NCBI RefSeq assembly: GCF_034522235.1
Contig: NZ_JAXHLN010000003.1
Coordinates: 1,984,001-2,048,000 of the forward strand
Length of the DNA: 64,000 nucleotides
DNA from: Thiohalophilus sp.
GTDB taxonomy: Bacteria; Pseudomonadota; Gammaproteobacteria; UBA6429; Thiohalophilaceae
Direction: 5' to 3'
Shown: positions 7,441 through 22,928 of the stretch, piece after piece
Position numbering within the stretch: the first letter of the stretch is position 1
How the letters are laid out: every line of letters begins with the position of its first letter
Made by a program: the position numbers and the translations under genes
The notes under the pieces: generated by a model
The model's input: only the letters and a program-made list of their open reading frames with translations
What the model was told of the DNA's origin: nothing
Databases searched by the model: none

Positions 7441-9864
7441 TCAATGCGGCCGCAGCGTACCGGGCGAATCGACGTTCTCGCTGTTTTTGACCACCTCGGC
7501 CGGTTTTTCCTCACCCTTCTCTTCCAGCGGTTCCGGCTGGCGGGTCAGGGCCAACTGCAGCACTTCGTCGATCCAGCGCACCGTGTGAATATCCAGTTTT
7601 TCCTTGATATTCTCCGGGATCTCGGTCAAATCCCGCTCGTTTTCATGTGGGATTAGCACAGTCTTGATCCCCCCGCGGTGGGCCGCCAGCAGTTTTTCCT
7701 TGAGCCCGCCGATGGGCAGCACTTCGCCGCGCAAGGTGATCTCCCCGGTCATGGCCACGTCGGCGCGCACCGGGATGCCGGTCAGCGCGGAGACCAGGGC
7801 GGTACACATGCCGATACCGGCACTGGGACCGTCCTTGGGGATCGCCCCCTCGGGAACATGTACATGGATGTCTTTCTTTTCGAAGACGTCCGGCTCAAGC
7901 CCCAGCACGTTGGCGCGGCTGCGTACCACCGACAGGGCCGCCTGGATGGACTCTTTCATCACATCGCCCAGCTGGCCGGTGATGTTGTGCTTGCCCTTGC
8001 CGGGCATGACCGCGGTTTCGATGGTCAGCAGTTCGCCGCCCACTTCGGTCCAGGCCAGGCCGGTCGCGTGGCCGATGCGATCTTCTTCCTCGGCCAGGCC
8101 GAAGCGGAAACGTTTGACGCCCAGGTATTTTTCCAGGCTGTCGGCCTTGACCACCACAGTCTCCTCGGAGGGCTCGCTCAGGATCTCCTTGACCACCTTG
8201 CGGCAGATCTTGGCGATCTCGCGCTCCAGGTTACGTACCCCGGCTTCACGGGTGTAGTAACGCACGATATCGAGGATCGCCTCCTCGGTGATCTCCACCT
8301 CGCCCTCTTTGAGGCCGTTGGCCTTCACCTGTTTGGAAACCAGGTACTTGAGCGCGATGTTGACCTTCTCGTCCTCGGTATAACCCGGCAGACGGATGAC
8401 TTCCATACGATCCAGCAGCGGCGCCGGAATGTTCATGGTGTTGGAGGTGGCCACGAACATCACTTCGGAAAGATCGTAATCGACCTCCATATAGTGATCG
8501 TTGAAGGTGTGGTTCTGTTCCGGATCCAGCACCTCGAGCAGGGCCGAAGCCGGGTCGCCACGAAAATCCATCGCCATCTTGTCAAGCTCATCGAGCAAAA
8601 ACAGCGGGTTGCGCGTGCCAATCTTGTACAGGTTCTGAATCACCTTGCCCGGCATGGAGCCGATGTAGGTCCGTCGGTGACCGCGAATTTCGGCCTCGTC
8701 ACGCACGCCGCCCAGCGCCATGCGGATGAACTTGCGGTTGGTGGCGCGGGCCAGGGATTTGCCGATGGAGGTCTTGCCCACACCCGGCGGCCCCACCAGA
8801 CAGAGGATCGGGCCTTTCATTTTCTTCATGCGGGTCTGCACGGCCAAATATTCGAGGATGCGCTCCTTGACCTTTTCCAGACCATAATGGTCCTCTTCCA
8901 GCACCTGTTCGGCACGGGCCAGGTCGTTACGCACCTTGCTGCGTTTCTTCCACGGTACACCCACCAGCCAATCGAGATAGTTGCGCACCACGGTCGCTTC
9001 GGCCGACATGGGCGACATCATCTTCAGCTTGTTGAACTCGGCCTTGGCCTTGGTCTTGGCTTCCTTGGACATGCCGGCGGACTCGATTTTCTTCTCCAGA
9101 TCCTCGAGCTCGTTGGGCACATCGTCCATCTCGCCCAGTTCCTTCTGGATCGCTTTCATCTGTTCGTTCAGATAGTACTCGCGCTGGCTCTTCTCCATCT
9201 GGCGCTTGACGCGACCGCGGATGCGTTTTTCGACCTGGAGCAGATCGATTTCCGACTCCATCAGGCCCATCAGCTGTTCCACCCGATCACGCAGCGAGAA
9301 GTTCTCGAGAATCTTCTGTTTCTCCTCGATTTTCAGCGACATGTGCGCGGCTATGGTGTCCACCAGACGGTTCGGATCATCGATGCTGGACAGGGAGGTA
9401 AGAATCTCCGGCGGGACCTTCTTGTTCAGCTTGACGTACTGATCAAACTGGGTGGTGAGGGACCGCACCAGCACTTCGGCTTCGCGATCATCCACGGTTT
9501 CTTCTTCGTACGCCTTGGCCTGGGCGGTAAAATATTCCTCTTCAGATTCACCGAAGTTCAGGACCTTGGCGCGCTTGCCGCCTTCGACCAGGACCTTGAC
9601 GGTGCCGTCGGGCAGTTTGAGCAATTGCAGGATGCTGGCCACGGTACCGATGCTGTACATATCGTCGGCCCTGGGATCATCCTCGGCAGCGCTCTTTTGC
9701 GCGACCAGCAGAATCTGTTTGTTGTCTTCCATGGCCGCTTCCAGCGCCTTGATCGATTTTTCACGACCGACGAACAGCGGAATGACCATGTGGGGATAGA
9801 CCACCACGTCCCGCAGCGGCAGGATCGGAATTTCGGTCAACGGCTCTTCAATCACATCTGACAT
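7441..9864 (-). CDS. lon: ATP-dependent protease Lon (La)
   Basis: Cytoplasmic AAA+ serine protease degrading misfolded and regulatory proteins, 807 aa. The LON substrate-binding N-domain covers about 10-205 ([20 protein letters not shown]). A coiled-coil linker follows, with the Walker A motif GPPGVGKTS near residue 365 and Walker [10 protein letters not shown]. The protease domain contains [15 protein letters not shown], holding the catalytic Ser, and [14 protein letters not shown], holding the catalytic Lys. The C-terminal tail ([20 protein letters not shown]) is charged and slightly longer than in E. coli. Order clpX-lon-hupB is conserved. A heat-shock type promoter lies upstream. Confidence 0.98.
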
Positions 9865-15778: not shown

Positions 15779-18028
15779 ATGCCAGAGCGACGGGAACTTA
15801 TTATCAGCGGAAGGGTGCAGGGCGTCGGGTTTCGTCCCTTTGTCTATCAACTCGCCCGGCGCCTGCAACTCGGGGGCTGGGTCAGAAATACCGGCGACAG
15901 CGTGCAACTTCAAGTCCAGGGTAACGACCAGGACATCGGCGCCTTTATCCAGGAACTTCAGACCAACCCGCCTGTCACCGCCTGCCCCGTAATTAGCCAG
16001 GATACGAAGCTGACACTTGTTGATGAAAACAGTTTTTCCATACTCGCGTCGCAGACTACGTCCGCAACGGACATCCATGTTCCTCCCGATTATTTTCTTT
16101 GTCCCGACTGTTTGCGCGAACTCAACGATCCAACCAACCGCCGCTACAACTATCCGTTCATCAACTGTTCGGTTTGCGGACCGCGTTACACCCTGATTCG
16201 ACAGTGGCCTTACGATCGGGCCAACACCGCAATGGCGGAATTCCCGCTCTGCCCGGCCTGTCAGGCCGAATATAGTGATCCGGCACAACGCCGTTTTCAT
16301 GCCGAACCTGTTGCCTGCCCCGATTGCGGACCGCAACTGCAATTTGATAACGGCCAGGCAATTCAAACCATCACCGACCCTGTCAAACCGGTTCTGGAAC
16401 TGTTAGAGCTGGGTGACATTATTTTAATTAAAGGTATCGGCGGTTATCACCTCTGTTGTGACGCCACCAACGCACAAGCCGTCACACAGTTGCGTCAACG
16501 CAAACAACGCCCGCATAAACCGCTGGCCGTGATGTTTCCGGCCCGGGGGCCCGACGAGCTGGAGGCAGTACGCCTGGAATTACAACTGGATGAAACAGCG
16601 GGCAGACTATTGCGTTCGCCCGCACGCCCCATTGTGCTGATCACAAAACGCCCTGACTGCACCCTGCCCGGGGAATTGGCTCCCGGTATGCAGGAGATCG
16701 GCGCTATGCTCCCCTATAGTCCGCTGCACTACCTGTTGCTAAGCCGATTCGGCAAACCACTGGTGGCAACCTCCGCCAACCTGAGCGGCGAACCGGTACT
16801 GACCGATGCCGCCGAAGTCAACCGCCGGCTTGCCACCGTCACTCCTTATCGTCTGCATCACAATCGTCCCATCGTGCGCCCGGCCGATGACCCGTTGATC
16901 CGCGTCATCGATCGGCAACCACGTCACTTGCGCCTGGGACGCGGTACCGCGCCACTGGAGCTGGAACTGCCCCAACCACTCAGTCAGCCGTTACTCGCCT
17001 GCGGCGGACAGATGAAAACCACCATTGCGCTGGCCTGGGATCAGCGGATTGTCATTTCACCGCATATCGGCGATCTCGATTCGCCGCGCGGTCGACAAAC
17101 TTATGCGCAGGTCATCGCCGATCTGCAGCAGCTCTATGGTATTCGGCCGACGGTCTTAAGCTGCGATCAGCACCCCGGTTATTACAGCCATCACTGGGCC
17201 GAACAACAGGGATTGCCGCTCTGTCCGATCTGGCATCACCATGCCCATGCGGCCCAATTGAGTGGCGAATTTCCGCAGGAGTCGACCTGGCTGGTCTTTA
17301 CCTGGGATGGTGTCGGACTGGGGCCGGACGGCACGTTGTGGGGCGGTGAAGCCCTGCTCGGGCAACCCGGCCAATGGCAACGGCTTGCCAGCTGGTCCCC
17401 CTTCAGTCTCCCCGGTGGCGACAAAGCGGCGCGAGAACCCTGGCGCACGGCCCTGGGATTGTGCTGGCAATCCGACACCGACTGGTCGGCGGCGCCCGCC
17501 GACACGGCCTTGCTGTATCGCGCCTGGCAAAAAGGACTCAACACACCCCGGACGACAGCTGTTGGGCGGCTGTTCGACGCAGCCGCCGCCCTGCTCGGGC
17601 TTTGCCAGACGGCCAGTTTCGAAGGCCAGGCGCCCATGTGGCTGGAACAACTGGCCTGGCAGGGTCAACATGACGGAATTCAGCTACCGCAGGTGTGGGA
17701 CGGTGCGCTCTGGCGCAGTGACATGACACCGCTGATTCCTCTGTTGCTGGACGAGAGTATCCCGACGGCGGATCGCGCCCGGGCCTTTCACGCGACCCTG
17801 GCCCATACCCTGCTCGATCAGGCCTGGCGGATTCAGCAACAACATGGCGATTTCGCGATCGGTCTGTCGGGTGGAGTGTTCCAGAACCGGTTACTCTGTG
17901 AACTGGTCCTGCAACAGTGTCGACAGGCCGGCTTTCGCGTCTATCTGCCGCAACAGGTGCCGGTCAACGATGCCGGTTTGTGTTACGGTCAGATCATCGA
18001 AGCCCGGGCCCGGCTTCAAGCGGACTAA
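15779..18028 (+). CDS. hypF: [NiFe]-hydrogenase maturation carbamoyltransferase HypF
   Basis: Makes the thiocarbamate precursor of the cyanide ligands of the NiFe active site by moving a carbamoyl group to HypE, 749 aa. The acylphosphatase domain is at about residues 5-90 (GRVQGVGFRPFVYQLARR). Two zinc fingers are CPDCLREL with CSVCGPRY, and CPACQAEY with CPDCGPQ. A YrdC-like domain follows (about 200-380, IGGYHLCCDA and ATSANLSGEPV). The C-terminal Kae1-like domain has HHHAHAAQLSGE and LSGGVFQN. It opens the hyp cluster. A nested inverted repeat separates it from hypE. Confidence 0.97.
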   Translation: MPERRELIISGRVQGVGFRPFVYQLARRLQLGGWVRNTGDSVQLQVQGNDQDIGAFIQELQTNPPVTACPVISQDTKLTLVDENSFSILASQTTSATDIHVPPDYFLCPDCLRELNDPTNRRYNYPFINCSVCGPRYTLIRQWPYDRANTAMAEFPLCPACQAEYSDPAQRRFHAEPVACPDCGPQLQFDNGQAIQTITDPVKPVLELLELGDIILIKGIGGYHLCCDATNAQAVTQLRQRKQRPHKPLAVMFPARGPDELEAVRLELQLDETAGRLLRSPARPIVLITKRPDCTLPGELAPGMQEIGAMLPYSPLHYLLLSRFGKPLVATSANLSGEPVLTDAAEVNRRLATVTPYRLHHNRPIVRPADDPLIRVIDRQPRHLRLGRGTAPLELELPQPLSQPLLACGGQMKTTIALAWDQRIVISPHIGDLDSPRGRQTYAQVIADLQQLYGIRPTVLSCDQHPGYYSHHWAEQQGLPLCPIWHHHAHAAQLSGEFPQESTWLVFTWDGVGLGPDGTLWGGEALLGQPGQWQRLASWSPFSLPGGDKAAREPWRTALGLCWQSDTDWSAAPADTALLYRAWQKGLNTPRTTAVGRLFDAAAALLGLCQTASFEGQAPMWLEQLAWQGQHDGIQLPQVWDGALWRSDMTPLIPLLLDESIPTADRARAFHATLAHTLLDQAWRIQQQHGDFAIGLSGGVFQNRLLCELVLQQCRQAGFRVYLPQQVPVNDAGLCYGQIIEARARLQAD

Positions 18029-18040
18029 AGATTAAAAACG

Positions 18041-18180
18041 ATTTCACCGCAGAGGCGGCAAGGTAATTTTGAGTTTTGAATGCTGAATTTTGAATTGAAC
18101 CCCTGTATCCAGATTTAACTCAAAATTCAAAATTCAAAATTCAAAATTCAAAATTATGTTTTCGTCTCTGCGGTGAAAAA
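18041..18180. repeat. Nested word-type inverted repeat between hypF and hypE
   Basis: The outer arms are tttcaccgcagaggcggc (from 18042) and gtctctgcggtgaaa (18164-18178). Inside them is a second inverted repeat made of AAAATTC words: 18064-18098 (gagttttgaa, ctgaattttgaattgaa) and 18117-18156, where caaaattcaaaattc is iterated five times. Two different word families are therefore nested in one element. It begins 12 bp after the hypF stop and ends 9 bp before the hypE start. Confidence 0.9.
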
Positions 18181-18189
18181 TTCAATTCC

Positions 18190-19209
18190 ATGAGCAAGCT
18201 GACTGACACGCACATTTCCCTCGCCCATGGCAATGGCGGCCGGCTGATGCGCGAGTTGATCGAAGAATTGATTGCTGGCTGTCTCGGCAATCGGCTGCTG
18301 GATTTTGAAAATGATGCGGCCGGTATCGACATGGCATGTGACGATGCCGAATTACTCATCACCACCGACGGCTTTACGGTCAAGCCGCTGGAATTCCCGG
18401 GCGGCAATATCGGGTCGCTGGCAGTACACGGTACGATCAACGATCTGGCGGTCAGCGGCGCGATTCCCCATTACCTGACCTTGAACCTGTTTATCGAAGA
18501 AGGGCTCGAGGTGGCGTTATTGCAACGCCTGCTCAACAGCCTGGCCGGTGCCGCCCGTGACGCCGACGTGCGCATCGCCTGCGGCGATACCAAGGTGGTG
18601 CCGCGCGGCGAAGGCAGCGGCGTCTATTTTGCCACCACCGGCGTCGGTCTGCGAACGCGTTCGTTACAACTGGGTATGTCCCGTATCCAGCCGGAAGACA
18701 CGATCCTCGTCAGCGGGCCGGTCGGGGACCACGGGATTGCCGTGATGCTGGCCCGCGAACAGTTCGGTCTGCGCGGCGAGGTCCGTTCCGATGCGGCCAG
18801 TGTCCTGCCCCTGGCGCAGGCCGCCACCGAACTGGGCGGCCTGCGTTATATGCGCGATCCCACCCGTGGCGGGCTGGCGACGGTACTGCATGAGATCCAG
18901 CGCGCCACCGGACTGGGAATACGGGTCCAGGAGTCCCGCATTCCGGTCCGCGAACCGGTCCGATCGGTCTGCGAGATGCTCGGCTACGATCCCTATTATC
19001 TGGCCTGTGAAGGGCGCATCGTTGCCGTTATCCCCAATGAACAGGCTCAGGCTTTACTGGATGCCTGGCAGCCGCTTCCCGGCGGTGAGCAGGCCGCCAT
19101 TATCGGGCAGCTGAGTCGCGACGACCCCGGCGTGGTGCTGGAAACCGAACTGGGTGGTGAGCGCATGCTCGAGGAACTGGAGGACGATCCCCTGCCGCGA
19201 ATCTGTTAG
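18190..19209 (+). CDS. hypE: Hydrogenase maturation dehydratase HypE
   Basis: Dehydrates the carbamoylated C-terminal cysteine to a thiocyanate that supplies CN to iron, 339 aa. The PurM/AIR-synthase fold is recognisable in LAHGNGGRLMRELI, GDTKVVPRGEG and MRDPTRGGLATVL. The obligatory C-terminal motif PRIC ends the protein, so the stop is authentic. Directly after the stop, in the same frame, lies a hydrogenase large-subunit fragment. Confidence 0.97.
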   Translation: MSKLTDTHISLAHGNGGRLMRELIEELIAGCLGNRLLDFENDAAGIDMACDDAELLITTDGFTVKPLEFPGGNIGSLAVHGTINDLAVSGAIPHYLTLNLFIEEGLEVALLQRLLNSLAGAARDADVRIACGDTKVVPRGEGSGVYFATTGVGLRTRSLQLGMSRIQPEDTILVSGPVGDHGIAVMLAREQFGLRGEVRSDAASVLPLAQAATELGGLRYMRDPTRGGLATVLHEIQRATGLGIRVQESRIPVREPVRSVCEMLGYDPYYLACEGRIVAVIPNEQAQALLDAWQPLPGGEQAAIIGQLSRDDPGVVLETELGGERMLEELEDDPLPRIC

Positions 19210-19323
19210 CCGGGCACGCCCTGCGGATTGCGCACCATCCACAGCTTCGATCCCTGTATTGCCTGTGCCGTACATGTGACCGATACTGAGGGAGACGAGC
19301 TGGTCAAGATCAAAGTCGTCTGA
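19210..19323 (+). pseudogene. Remnant of a [NiFe]-hydrogenase large subunit (C-terminal ~37 codons)
   Basis: The frame entered immediately after the hypE stop encodes PGTPCG, then [17 protein letters not shown], then [14 protein letters not shown] and a TGA. This contains the large-subunit L2 motif DPCxxC with its NiFe-ligating cysteines. It also has the His after which the maturation protease cleaves, and the removable C-terminal extension. No start codon or upstream coding part exists, since hypE fills that space. It is best read as a deletion scar of a hydrogenase operon that once preceded the HupE-like gene and hypC. The frame match with hypE may be chance. Confidence 0.85.
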
Positions 19324-19341
19324 CAGGAAGGAGAGTAAACC

Positions 19342-19572
19342 ATGTCACGTATTCTCACTACAGGTTTGTTATCCAGTGGCGGACTGTTATTCGCCAATTA
19401 CGGAGTTGCTCACCCCGCGGCCGACCACAGCATGTCTTTTACACAAGGCCTGTTGCACCTGCTCAGCCAGCCGGATCATCTTCTGATGATACTCGGGGCC
19501 GGCGTGTTCGCGATGTTGATGCTGAAAAGCCTTGTCGCTCGCCGGGCCGCGCGCAAGCGCCGGGACCAGTAG
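19342..19572 (+). CDS. Small HupE-like membrane protein
   Basis: 76 aa with an AAGGAGA ribosome site 8 bases before the ATG. An N-terminal hydrophobic stretch that could be a signal sequence (ILTTGLLSSGGLLFANYGVAHP) is followed by HSMSFTQGLLHLLSQPDHLLMIL. That resembles the N-terminal HPxxGLDHLLAML signature of HupE/UreJ nickel-related membrane proteins. A second helix and a basic tail (ARRAARKRRDQ) follow. It is far shorter than HupE (~190 aa), so it is either a distinct small accessory protein of hydrogenase operons or a truncation. It sits 3 bp before hypC, suggesting translational coupling. Confidence 0.7.
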   Translation: MSRILTTGLLSSGGLLFANYGVAHPAADHSMSFTQGLLHLLSQPDHLLMILGAGVFAMLMLKSLVARRAARKRRDQ

Positions 19573-19575
19573 CCC

Positions 19576-19818
19576 ATGTGCCTGGGCATTCCGATGCAGA
19601 TTGTGGAAATCAACGGTTTTAACGCCCGTTGCGAAGCCAAAGGCGTGGAACGGGATGTCAGCCTGTTCATGCTGCAGGATGACGCGGTCAAGCCCGGCGA
19701 TTATGTGATGGTGCACGTGGGCTACGCGATTCAGAAGATCAGCGAACAGGATGCCCGTTCCAGCTGGGAGCTGTTCGACGAAATCCTCGCCGCCGAGGCG
19801 GTGCAGAACGATGCATGA
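19576..19818 (+). CDS. hypC: Hydrogenase maturation chaperone HypC/HybG
   Basis: Carries the Fe(CN)2CO group with HypD and delivers it to the large-subunit precursor, 80 aa. The family N-terminus MCLGIPMQI supplies the essential Cys2, exposed after Met removal. The rest (PGDYVMVHVGYAIQKI) is the usual OB-like fold. Its last codons overlap the hypA start by 8 bases (ATGCATGA), so the two are translationally coupled. Confidence 0.96.
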   Translation: MCLGIPMQIVEINGFNARCEAKGVERDVSLFMLQDDAVKPGDYVMVHVGYAIQKISEQDARSSWELFDEILAAEAVQNDA

Positions 19819-20185
19819 ACTGTCGGTCTGCCAGAGCCTGCTCGGCCAGATCGAACTGACGGCCCGGCAGCACCATGCCAGTCGTGTGCACCGGGTGAGT
19901 CTTAAGATCGGTCCCCTGTCGGGGGTCGAGCCGCAGTTGCTGCAACAGGCCTTTCCCATCGCCGTGGCGGGCAGTATTGCCGAAACCGCGACGCTGGATA
20001 TTGAACTGCTACCCATTCGTCTGGAATGCCGGCAATGTGGCGCCGAATCCGAGGCAGCCGCGGCCAATCAACTGATTTGCGGACAATGCGGTCACTGGCA
20101 AACGCGCCTGCTCAGCGGCGATGAAATGTTACTGGCGAGCCTGGAACTGGACCGACCGACCGATGAACAGACTGTTAATGGTTAA
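19811..20185 (+). CDS. hypA: Hydrogenase nickel-insertion protein HypA
   Basis: Nickel metallochaperone acting with HypB, 124 aa with the start placed at MHELSV because His2 is the nickel ligand. Zinc-site cysteines are Cys73, Cys76, Cys90 and Cys93 (CRQC and CGQC). An upstream in-frame start is possible but would bury the MHE motif. It overlaps hypC by 8 bases. Confidence 0.96.
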   Translation: MHELSVCQSLLGQIELTARQHHASRVHRVSLKIGPLSGVEPQLLQQAFPIAVAGSIAETATLDIELLPIRLECRQCGAESEAAAANQLICGQCGHWQTRLLSGDEMLLASLELDRPTDEQTVNG

Positions 20186-20194
20186 CAAAACAAT

Positions 20195-20301
20195 ACTCAC
20201 CACCAGGACACAAAGGCACCAAGAAAAATTTATATAAAAGCCCGACATAAAAATATCTTTATGTTTGTTTAAATCTTGGTGTCTTGGTGTCTTGGTGGTT
20301 T
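20195..20301. repeat. Word-type inverted repeat (ACCACCAAGACAC family) between hypA and hypB
   Basis: Arm one, 20195-20222, reads actcaccaccaggacacaaa then ggcacc. Arm two, 20275-20301, reads cttggtgtcttggtgtcttg then gtggt. An AT-rich centre separates them. It starts about 10 bp after the hypA stop and ends 30 bp before hypB. Same word family as 3151-3231. Confidence 0.9.
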
Positions 20302-20331
20302 AGCTTTAGAACTTTTCCAAAAGGAGGCGAT

Positions 20332-21162
20332 ATGTGTGATACCTGCGGCTGCAATGTAACAAACGGTAACCGGCATCTGCTGCAGCCGGCCGGCAAGCTG
20401 GAAAAAACCGCCGACGGCAAGTCAGCGGTGACGGTACTGCAAAGCCTGTTGTCGGAAAACGATCACCAGGCCCTGCACAATCGTCAGCACTTTGATCAAC
20501 ACGGGGTGCTGGCCATCAACCTGATGTCCTCCCCCGGCAGCGGCAAGACCGCCCTGCTCGAAGCCACCATCGACGCCCTCGCCGGCCGTTACCGCATTGC
20601 GGTCATCGAAGGGGACCTGGAAACCGAGAACGATGCCGAGCGCATCCGCGCCAGAGGCGTCACGGCGATCCAGATCGCCACCGGCAGCGCCTGTCACCTG
20701 GATGCCCACATGGTGCACGATGCCCTGCACCGGCTGAACCTGGCCGATTATGATCTGGTATTTATCGAAAACGTCGGCAACCTGGTCTGCCCCGCCAGTT
20801 TCGATCTGGGCCATCACCACAACATCACCCTGCTTTCGGTGACCGAAGGCGACGACAAGCCAGCCAAGTACCCGATCATGTTTCGCGCCGCCGATCTGAT
20901 GCTGTTGACCAAGACCGATCTGCTCGCGGTACTGGATGATTTTGAACCGCAAAAGGCCGAACAGTGCCTGCGGCAACTGGCCAATCCGGCGCCCATGCTG
21001 TCACTGTCGGCCACCCGGCAACAGGGCCTGGAAGCGTGGTTCGACTGGCTGGATGATGCCATTGCCTCCCACCGCCAGCGGCTTGAACAGGGCGAAACGG
21101 TCTTGCCCAAAATCCAGTCGGACGGTGCCCGGTGGCACACCGGCGAAGCGGGCCATCCCTGA
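20332..21162 (+). CDS. hypB: Hydrogenase nickel-incorporation GTPase HypB
   Basis: GTPase that drives nickel transfer from HypA to the large subunit, 276 aa. The start is set at ATG 20332 because AAAAGGAGGCGAT precedes it and the product begins MCDTCGCN, the E. coli-type high-affinity nickel motif. An earlier ATG at 20284 would lie inside the repeat arm. The P-loop is SSPGSGKTALLE (about residues 64-75). IEGDLETENDAERI and IENVGNLVCPASFDLG carry switch and metal-site residues. There is no histidine-rich nickel-storage tract. Confidence 0.96.
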   Translation: MCDTCGCNVTNGNRHLLQPAGKLEKTADGKSAVTVLQSLLSENDHQALHNRQHFDQHGVLAINLMSSPGSGKTALLEATIDALAGRYRIAVIEGDLETENDAERIRARGVTAIQIATGSACHLDAHMVHDALHRLNLADYDLVFIENVGNLVCPASFDLGHHHNITLLSVTEGDDKPAKYPIMFRAADLMLLTKTDLLAVLDDFEPQKAEQCLRQLANPAPMLSLSATRQQGLEAWFDWLDDAIASHRQRLEQGETVLPKIQSDGARWHTGEAGHP

Positions 21163-21177
21163 GGTCGACAACCGCTG

Positions 21178-22272
21178 ATGAGCCTCGACGCGCGACAATG
21201 GCTGCAACAGATCCGGCAACTGCCCTTGCCGAAGAAAATGCGCATCATGAATGTCTGCGGCGGGCACGAGCGTTCGATCACCCAGGCCGGCCTGCGCAGC
21301 GCCCTGCCCGACAACATCGAATTGATTCCCGGTCCCGGTTGTCCGGTCTGCGTTTGCCCCGAAGAAGATGTCTATGAAGCCATCCAGATTGCCCTGAACG
21401 AGAATGTTATTCTGCTGGCCTTCGGCGATATGTTGCGCGTCCCGGTCAATGTCCGCAAAAGCGAAGCGCGCTCACTGGAACAGGCCCGGGCCCGCGGCGC
21501 CGATATTCGCCCGGTAGCCTCGCCCACCGACGTGGTCCGGATCGCCAGAGAGCATCCCAACAAAGAGGTGGTGTTCTTTGCCGCCGGCTTTGAAACCACC
21601 ACCGCGCCGGTCGCCGCGATGCTGGCCGAAGGCGTGCCGGCCAATCTGCTGTTACTGCTTTCGGGGCGACTGACCTGGCCGGCGGTGGCCATGCTGCTGA
21701 ACTCGGAAGACCCCGGTTTTGATTGCCTGGTGGCACCGGGCCACGTGGCCACGGTCATGGGCTCGGAAGAATGGCGCTTTGTCGTCGAACAGCACAACAT
21801 TCCGGCGGCCGTGGCCGGTTTCAACAACGAAAGCCTGCTGGCCGCCTTTTATTCGACGCTGCGCCAGTTACTGGAGGACAAGCCGTTTCTGGATAACTGC
21901 TATCCCGAACTGGTCACCGAACAGGGCAACCGCCACGCCAAACAGCACCTGTACAACGTCATGCAAGTCACCGACGCCAACTGGCGCGGGATCGGCACCA
22001 TTCCGTTATCCGGTTTTGGTCTGAAAGACGCCTATCAAGCACATGATGCGCGGCAAAAATACGCCGGCTACCAGGATGACGCCCGCAAGCGGGCCGGCGA
22101 GATGCCACCGGGCTGCGACTGTGCGCGGGTGGTACTGGGCAAGATCTATCCCACCGAATGCAAACTGTACGGCGCCGCCTGCACCCCCCGCAATCCGATC
22201 GGTCCGTGCATGGTCTCCGACGAAGGTGCCTGCCGGATCTGGTGGAGCAACGTGAGAAAACCCGCTGCCTGA
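21178..22272 (+). CDS. hypD: Hydrogenase maturation scaffold HypD
   Basis: Iron-sulfur protein on which the Fe(CN)2CO unit is assembled with HypC, 364 aa. Conserved cysteine motifs are NVCGGHERS, GPGCPVCVCPEED, GFETTTAP, PPGCDCARVVLGKIYPTEC and FGAACTPRNPIGPC-like (YGAACTPRNPIGPC). It is the last hyp gene, 15 bp after hypB. A short inverted-repeat element follows the stop by 6 bp. Confidence 0.97.
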   Translation: MSLDARQWLQQIRQLPLPKKMRIMNVCGGHERSITQAGLRSALPDNIELIPGPGCPVCVCPEEDVYEAIQIALNENVILLAFGDMLRVPVNVRKSEARSLEQARARGADIRPVASPTDVVRIAREHPNKEVVFFAAGFETTTAPVAAMLAEGVPANLLLLLSGRLTWPAVAMLLNSEDPGFDCLVAPGHVATVMGSEEWRFVVEQHNIPAAVAGFNNESLLAAFYSTLRQLLEDKPFLDNCYPELVTEQGNRHAKQHLYNVMQVTDANWRGIGTIPLSGFGLKDAYQAHDARQKYAGYQDDARKRAGEMPPGCDCARVVLGKIYPTECKLYGAACTPRNPIGPCMVSDEGACRIWWSNVRKPAA

Positions 22273-22379: not shown

Positions 22380-22928
22380 CTACTCCAGCATCATCCCCCG
22401 CCCCCGGTATTGGCGCAGTTGCTCACGCTGCTCATCGGTCAGTTTGCCCATCATCTTGTTGCGGGCCTCCAGGCGGTCCATAAACATCTGTTTACGCAGT
22501 TTAGCCATCTTGTCGTAGATTTTACCTGCTGCAGCCGGGTCGGGATTCTCCGTCTGCATGACATCCTGCAGCTGATGGCGTAACTCCATCATCTCGCCCA
22601 TTCGCTCCCAGTTTTGCTTTTGCATATCCCGCTGCATCTGGCGAATCGTATCGCGCTGGCTGTCATCAAGATCCAGCTGCATCATCGGTCCCATACCGCC
22701 CATCATGCCGTGGCCATTCATCATGCCCATGCCACCCATCATTCCCTGGCCGCCCATCATGTCCATGCCACCCATCATTCCGCGTTGCTGCATCATACGA
22801 TTCTGATAATCATCGTCATCCATCTGACCCATCATGCCCATGCCCGAACCGCCATGCGCGCTGACGGGCACGGAGAACGACAAAGTCAGGCAAAATGCCA
22901 ATACGCTTAATAATCTCGGATAGTTCAT
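22380..22928 (-). CDS. Methionine-rich Spy/CpxP-like periplasmic protein
   Basis: 182 aa, with a clear signal peptide (LLSVLAFCLTLSFSVPVSA, then HGG). Residues 29-84 are a low-complexity Met/Gly tract with units such as GMMGGM, GMMGGMGMMNGHGMM and an acidic DDDD. Such tracts often bind Cu(I) or Ag(I). The C-terminal half is helical and resembles the LTxxQ family, with KLTDEQREQL near the end and conserved MDRLEARNKMM. A role as a periplasmic chaperone or copper buffer is inferred from family and composition. Convergent with hypD. Confidence 0.8.
   Translation of the reverse strand: MNYPRLLSVLAFCLTLSFSVPVSAHGGSGMGMMGQMDDDDYQNRMMQQRGMMGGMDMMGGQGMMGGMGMMNGHGMMGGMGPMMQLDLDDSQRDTIRQMQRDMQKQNWERMGEMMELRHQLQDVMQTENPDPAAAGKIYDKMAKLRKQMFMDRLEARNKMMGKLTDEQREQLRQYRGRGMMLE

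Follow-up and report, generated by a model that had tools for sequence, protein, structure and literature searches.

A hupL 3'-end remnant directly behind hypE in Thiohalophilus as the scar of a deletion in a [NiFe]-hydrogenase operon

In methanogens, VhuU is a separately encoded peptide carrying the L2 motif that joins a large hydrogenase subunit lacking its own C-terminus, and in heterocyst-forming cyanobacteria a split hupL is rejoined by a recombinase. The locus analyzed here resembles VhuU of Methanococcus voltae, which we take to be a very short open reading frame with the C-terminal metal motif of the large subunit; VhuU, however, presumably pairs with a large subunit devoid of this end, and no such partner was found in the genome under study. 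Likewise, the other half of hupL, as expected for an excisable element of the cyanobacterial type, was not found elsewhere in this genome. A further case is the defective hupSL of the sulfur bacterium Candidatus Thiomargarita nelsonii, which passages of PMC4853749 assign to group 2c and in which the hyp genes were kept as they are here; in that bacterium, however, a MITE interrupts hupSL, which is also otherwise disrupted or fused, and the hyp genes lie on another contig. The same passages mention hupL rearrangement. The portions of the literature found on Thiohalophilus hydrogenase and related topics do not describe the remnant reported below.

The window, meaning the whole stretch of 64,000 nucleotides of Thiohalophilus sp. 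DNA that was analyzed, contains the following features.

15779-18028, plus strand: hypF, 749 aa, intact frame (Pfam; syntenic in Thiohalophilus thiocyanatoxydans)
18190-19209, plus strand: hypE, 339 aa, intact, ending in PRIC-stop, left edge of the deletion (Pfam; homologue in the congener)
19210-19227, plus strand: junction of 18 nt with no large-subunit homology
19228-19323, plus strand: hupL 3'-end relic, the last 31 codons and the stop, with DPCxxCxxH (profile match, synteny, codon comparison)
19342-19572, plus strand: short HupE-like protein of 76 aa with an open frame, bordering the scar on the right (PF04955, E 3.3e-7)
19576-19818, plus strand: hypC, intact frame (Pfam; synteny in the congener)
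19814-20185, plus strand: hypA, intact frame (Pfam; synteny in the congener)
20284-21162, plus strand: hypB, intact frame (Pfam; synteny in the congener)
21178-22272, plus strand: hypD, intact frame (Pfam; synteny in the congener)

A first-pass annotation had read the letters behind hypE as a large-subunit C-terminus in the hypE frame with no gene ahead of it, and this held: the 31 residues encoded at 19228-19320 match PF00374 (Nickel-dependent hydrogenase) at profile positions 493-508 of 508 with an E-value of 5.5e-7 and 29.3 bits, and the sequence upstream (18190-19209) is the intact hypE frame rather than a large-subunit gene. The remnant shares its frame with hypE, opens 18 nt (six codons) past the TAG at 19207-19209, and is closed by a TGA ending at 19323. 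Outside the window's own genome, the top match to the 31-residue query among 369 genomes was a large-subunit frame of 583 codons with 93% identity, and the match is therefore not a chance one. The L2 motif DPCxxCxxH and the tail behind it, by which a large subunit is recognized, are present; neither the L1 motif (RICGVC) at the N-terminus nor the main part of the fold is there, as only profile positions 493-508 are covered. When HupL of T. thiocyanatoxydans was compared with its closest solved structure, the aligned residues ran from 1 to 574 and ended at the histidine of CAVH; most of the 40 chains listed likewise end at residue 574, and a few extend to 588. The remnant thus consists of 16 mature residues, including DPCxxCxxH, and a 15-residue tail of the type cleaved in maturation. 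Parts of PMC12134894 describe such a C-terminal cleavage during [NiFe]-hydrogenase maturation, and they also state that the C-terminal cysteine of HypE bears the cyanide precursor; in the window HypE, this cysteine is kept as the final residue.

Two further elements adjoin these genes. The gap between hypF and hypE (18042-18178) holds a large imperfect palindrome with 55-nt arms that are 85% complementary, flanked by TTTCACCGCAGAG-like sequence; it gave 88 match rows in its own genome, many places being counted once per strand, which points to a dispersed repeat, MITE-like or intergenic. In the corresponding gap of T. thiocyanatoxydans, a stretch 67% similar to the palindrome lies in inverse orientation. 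Behind hypD, the minus strand (22380-22928) encodes a methionine/glycine-rich repeat protein (MMGGMGMMNGHG...) with a homologue 83% identical in the congener; our guess is that its product is possibly a periplasmic metal-related protein.

The origin of the remnant becomes apparent when the window is aligned with T. thiocyanatoxydans DSM 16326 (NZ_SOQX01000006.1; G001), the single congeneric genome in the comparison. The inspection of relatives for gene order, as had been proposed, found that this species keeps hupS and hupL ahead of hupE and hypC: its order is hypF-hypE-insert-hupL 3' end-hupE-hypC-A-B-D, the homologue of the 22380 protein and folD, and the order in the window is identical apart from the insert. 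HypE is 80% identical between the two over 339/339 residues. The insert encodes a cytochrome c-like protein, HupD (PF01750), a HupH-like protein (HupH_C, PF04809), HupS (PF14720, PF01058), a 96-aa open reading frame without a Pfam match, and HupL (PF00374), so that hydrogenase structural genes once stood here as the first-pass annotation had supposed. The hupL of T. thiocyanatoxydans is whole, with 589 codons, and is preceded by hupS, hupD, the hupH-like gene and the cytochrome c gene; codons 1-558 have no counterpart in the window, whereas the final 31 are 87% identical to the remnant in protein sequence, with the same gene order on both sides. In this comparison, large-subunit homology begins at the codon at 19228. 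At the DNA level, homology ends at window position 19207 (G001rc 2041) and restarts at 19229 (6585), and 4,540 bases separate the hypE stop from hupL codon 559 in T. thiocyanatoxydans as compared with 18 in the window. Nearest to the T. thiocyanatoxydans HupL among solved structures is 3myr (E 7.7e-279), which we take to be the enzyme of Allochromatium vinosum; judged by this similarity and by the small-subunit C-terminal domain, the lost enzyme would belong to group 1. Positions 19228-19323 thus match one end of a single gene, which is intact at the corresponding site of a close relative; at the level of sequence comparison, this confirmed that they are a pseudogene remnant, the scar left by the deletion of a group 1 [NiFe]-hydrogenase large-subunit gene. 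The suggestion that the structural genes had been replaced by hypF-hypE did not hold, as T. thiocyanatoxydans has hypF-hypE in the same order upstream of its intact hup genes; with this pair at the same place in both species, the change amounts to a plain loss of ~4.5 kb from between hypE and hupE/hypC.

The reading favored here, with a probability of roughly 0.93, is that a group 1 uptake hydrogenase lost its specific genes in a late deletion of ~4.54 kb within the hydrogenase operon, that the hyp genes were kept for a second hydrogenase, and that a 31-codon relic without function was left behind. The deletion would have taken the small cytochrome c, the HupD protease, the HupH-like protein, HupS, the 96-aa open reading frame and 558 of the 589 HupL codons, with its left end a few bases from the hypE stop and its right end 31 codons before the hupL stop. 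This was presumably a single event. At the junction, the 25-nt stretch that contains the 18 nt has no second copy in its own genome at up to 3 mismatches, and the flanks of the breakpoints in T. thiocyanatoxydans (50 and 60 nt) share no microhomology longer than 5 nt. Templated filler was also considered and rejected: the best match of the junction in the T. thiocyanatoxydans region, on both strands, was 14/21, nothing above chance (shuffled controls, scored on one strand only, gave 13.6 as the mean maximum and 16 at most).

The search of the whole genome for subunits returned no group 1 small subunit, no other hupL and one intact hydrogenase of another type. The genome comprises 3.06 Mb in 3 contigs with a completeness of 100%. 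Neither the small-subunit C-terminal domain PF14720 (one match each in G001, G017 and G052) nor the first 80 residues of HupL found a match in it; of the lost genes, the search covered the body of hupL, hupS and hupD, and these are missing from it. The PF00374 scan of the genome found the scar, at 25.2 bits slightly below the cut-off of 25.8, and one other gene (C3:594597-595736). A relocation of the hup genes is unsupported, as hupS, the hupL N-terminus and hupD are unmatched in their own genome. The scar is known from one assembly of one strain, and the hup genes might in principle exist and have been collapsed out of the contig; this is very improbable given the three contigs of a complete assembly, the lack of hupS, hupD and the hupL N-terminus elsewhere in it, and the compared flanks in T. 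thiocyanatoxydans, where any shared stretch is at most 5 nt long and thus too short to have driven a collapse. That only the 3' end of hupL lies here, in a genome with dispersed repeats, would also suit a programmed or mobile-element interruption, with the other part of hupL elsewhere and rejoined by a recombinase. The probability of such an arrangement is close to nil, since the N-terminal 80 HupL residues and the small-subunit C-terminal domain are unmatched and both neighbors of the scar are the genes expected in the operon.

Under the favored deletion model, the retained hyp set has a client. The other PF00374 gene encodes the large subunit at the end of a complete set of four genes, namely a 4Fe-4S dicluster subunit, an NAD-binding subunit, a small subunit and the large subunit; the best solved relatives of its product are a cytosolic NiFe-hydrogenase alpha subunit (5yxy, E 4e-70) and the alpha subunit of sulfhydrogenase 1 (9nez, E 5e-68), and the enzyme would by these relatives be group 3b-like. 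The only match to a HycI-type protease in the genome (C3:595904-596167) adjoins it. T. thiocyanatoxydans has a counterpart of this protease and HupD, whereas the genome studied here has the HycI match only. According to PMC12134894, the [NiFe] cofactor cannot be made without the six Hyp proteins, so that the second hydrogenase is an obvious client of the retained set; most likely, hypFE and hypCABD were kept because this enzyme still needs maturation. The shared hypF-hypE and hypC-A-B-D genes would have stayed open while maturing the four-subunit enzyme, which has its own protease. The first-pass annotation had offered either another hydrogenase elsewhere or a recent loss; each part finds support, in the group 3b-like set and in the undecayed scar, but not as alternatives, as both are favored together.

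The scar shows no decay. Compared with T. thiocyanatoxydans, it has a dN of 0.058 and a dS of 0.50 (NG86), like hypC (0.058 and 0.53) and hypB (0.054 and 0.42); across hypC, hypA, hypB, hypD, hypE and folD, dN ranges from 0.054 to 0.141 and dS from 0.42 to 1.15. When 46 variants were collected from relatives' frames no shorter than 360 codons, each of the 31 residues of the scar was seen among them at its own position, and at most two residue changes, D and I, were judged by eye to be new on the window branch. In simulations of neutral drift, two or fewer residue changes were seen in ~5% of runs at 0.1 substitutions per site and in less than 1% at 0.15, as compared with a share of 0.21-0.58 expected for the window branch when roughly taken as half of the neighbors' dS. 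Unless constraint acts on the fragment, the deletion therefore most likely dates from late on this branch; a young deletion would explain why 31 codons that presumably have no present function still look fresh. The HupE-like protein might point to an earlier loss after which selection was relaxed, as it is only 41% identical to its homologue in T. thiocyanatoxydans (77 aa, at the same place) with a dN of 0.61, compared with 77-90% for hypA-E. Its identity to proteins of other genera, over short stretches, is 40% for the window and 37% for T. thiocyanatoxydans with L040, and 38% and 46% with both L039 and L009; the window copy looks like no clear outlier and seems to be fast-evolving in general, which counters the hint. 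The protein is short in both Thiohalophilus and L040 (76 aa in the window against a family model of 179 positions), and in L009 and L039 the frame behind hupL is much longer than the HupE-like frame of the window.

An undecayed scar would also fit a constrained mini-gene. The 31-residue frame, with a TTG start at 19228, could then be a working split subunit of the VhuU kind, completing a large subunit whose C-terminus is missing, and the preserved DPCxxCxxH residues and tail, the low dN/dS, the open frame starting 18 nt behind hypE among tightly packed genes, and the lack of terminator-like sites at 18150-19700 (0, shuffle mean 1.3) are in line with this. Promoter-like sites are equally lacking there (0, shuffle mean 0.4), however, and no clear Shine-Dalgarno sequence was seen by eye ahead of the TTG. 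Additionally, the comparison of 3' ends found that the only other PF00374 gene has its own NYDPCISCSTHF end; no large subunit without a C-terminus was found in the genome, and neither were a group 1 small subunit and a hupL N-terminus. A split subunit is hardly credible on this evidence. The zero counts of promoter-like and terminator-like sites are compatible with transcription through the scar or without it, and neither prove nor exclude it.

The favored reading is thus an ordinary young gene loss by internal operon deletion, an event of a type already known. It matters as a hydrogenase loss caught in the act, with the enzyme-specific genes gone and the shared cofactor-assembly genes kept, and it offers a natural test of one hyp set serving two different [NiFe]-hydrogenases. 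For annotation it is a warning that the presence of an uptake hydrogenase does not follow from hyp genes, from hupE or from an isolated DPCxxC match.

Similar remnants were sought with the 31-residue query, which matched 70 of the 369 gammaproteobacterial genomes in 87 rows, 11 of them with an open frame below 400 aa. Cuts at contig ends (G052, G238, G243, G373) were dropped, as was G322, where a 100-base N run and another N run at the end of the other hupL half indicate a scaffolding gap; G071:C135 (degenerate, near a contig end) and G284:C5 (contig end) were dropped with no hydrogenase genes recognized around them, and G109 was left out. Large-subunit ends without a gene but with accessory genes on both sides remained in 3 rows: the window, G107 and G210. 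In G107:C77, as in the window, hupS and the first part of hupL (~2.5 kb) are gone while a congener (G237:C77) is intact; its remnant is longer, however, covering hupL codons 468-589 (G001 numbering) between hupH and hypC, its cut begins behind hupH instead of hypE, hupD is present with a broken frame, and the genome has other large-subunit genes, one of them over the full profile (C9). In G210, no full-profile group 1 large subunit was found and the hyp genes were kept, and the one other PF00374 frame (444 codons) gives a weak split match like that of the group 3b-like gene, a likeness by match pattern alone. G210:C6 differs in that a HupH-like protein is fused in frame to hupL codons 557-588 (G001 numbering), in that hupD is retained, and in that a large-subunit-like frame of 398 codons follows, which we take to be HupK-like.

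The gene directly after the remnant is hupE-like in the window, hypC in G107 and HupK-like in G210. With an accessory gene in this position in all three cases, genes still in use perhaps set the limits of the deletions and thereby spared the end of hupL; this is offered as a suggestion. Alternatively, the hupL 3' end might have been kept on purpose after the loss of hupSL in these three genomes, as a peptide with the L2 motif that, on its own or as part of an accessory protein, still acts in maturation, for instance by attaching to a hyp protein or to a protease; we consider this very doubtful. With so few cases and with queries of unequal length (31 vs 80 aa), no bias toward retention of the C-terminus is claimed. 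The N-terminal control, an 80-aa query against the same 369 genomes, had a match in 121 and contained one checked internal relic (G284:C6), both among the matches listed.

In that relic (locus L183, 5612-5888), the start of a small subunit runs into large-subunit residues 47-113, and a HupK-like frame and hypABCDE follow. A full-length large subunit of the group 1 type is encoded in this genome as well, and a lone large-subunit C-terminus lies at the end of another contig (G284:C5, locus L182, 8-109). The degenerate large-subunit end in G071:C135 (locus L174, 88-227) is without the SFDPC part of the metal motif, in a genome with full-length copies. The fusion in G210:C6 (locus L184, ~9055-9417, minus strand) joins the HupH-like protein to the last 32 large-subunit residues at a point where both proteins look alike in G001 (LPAILKT and QPIEILRT).
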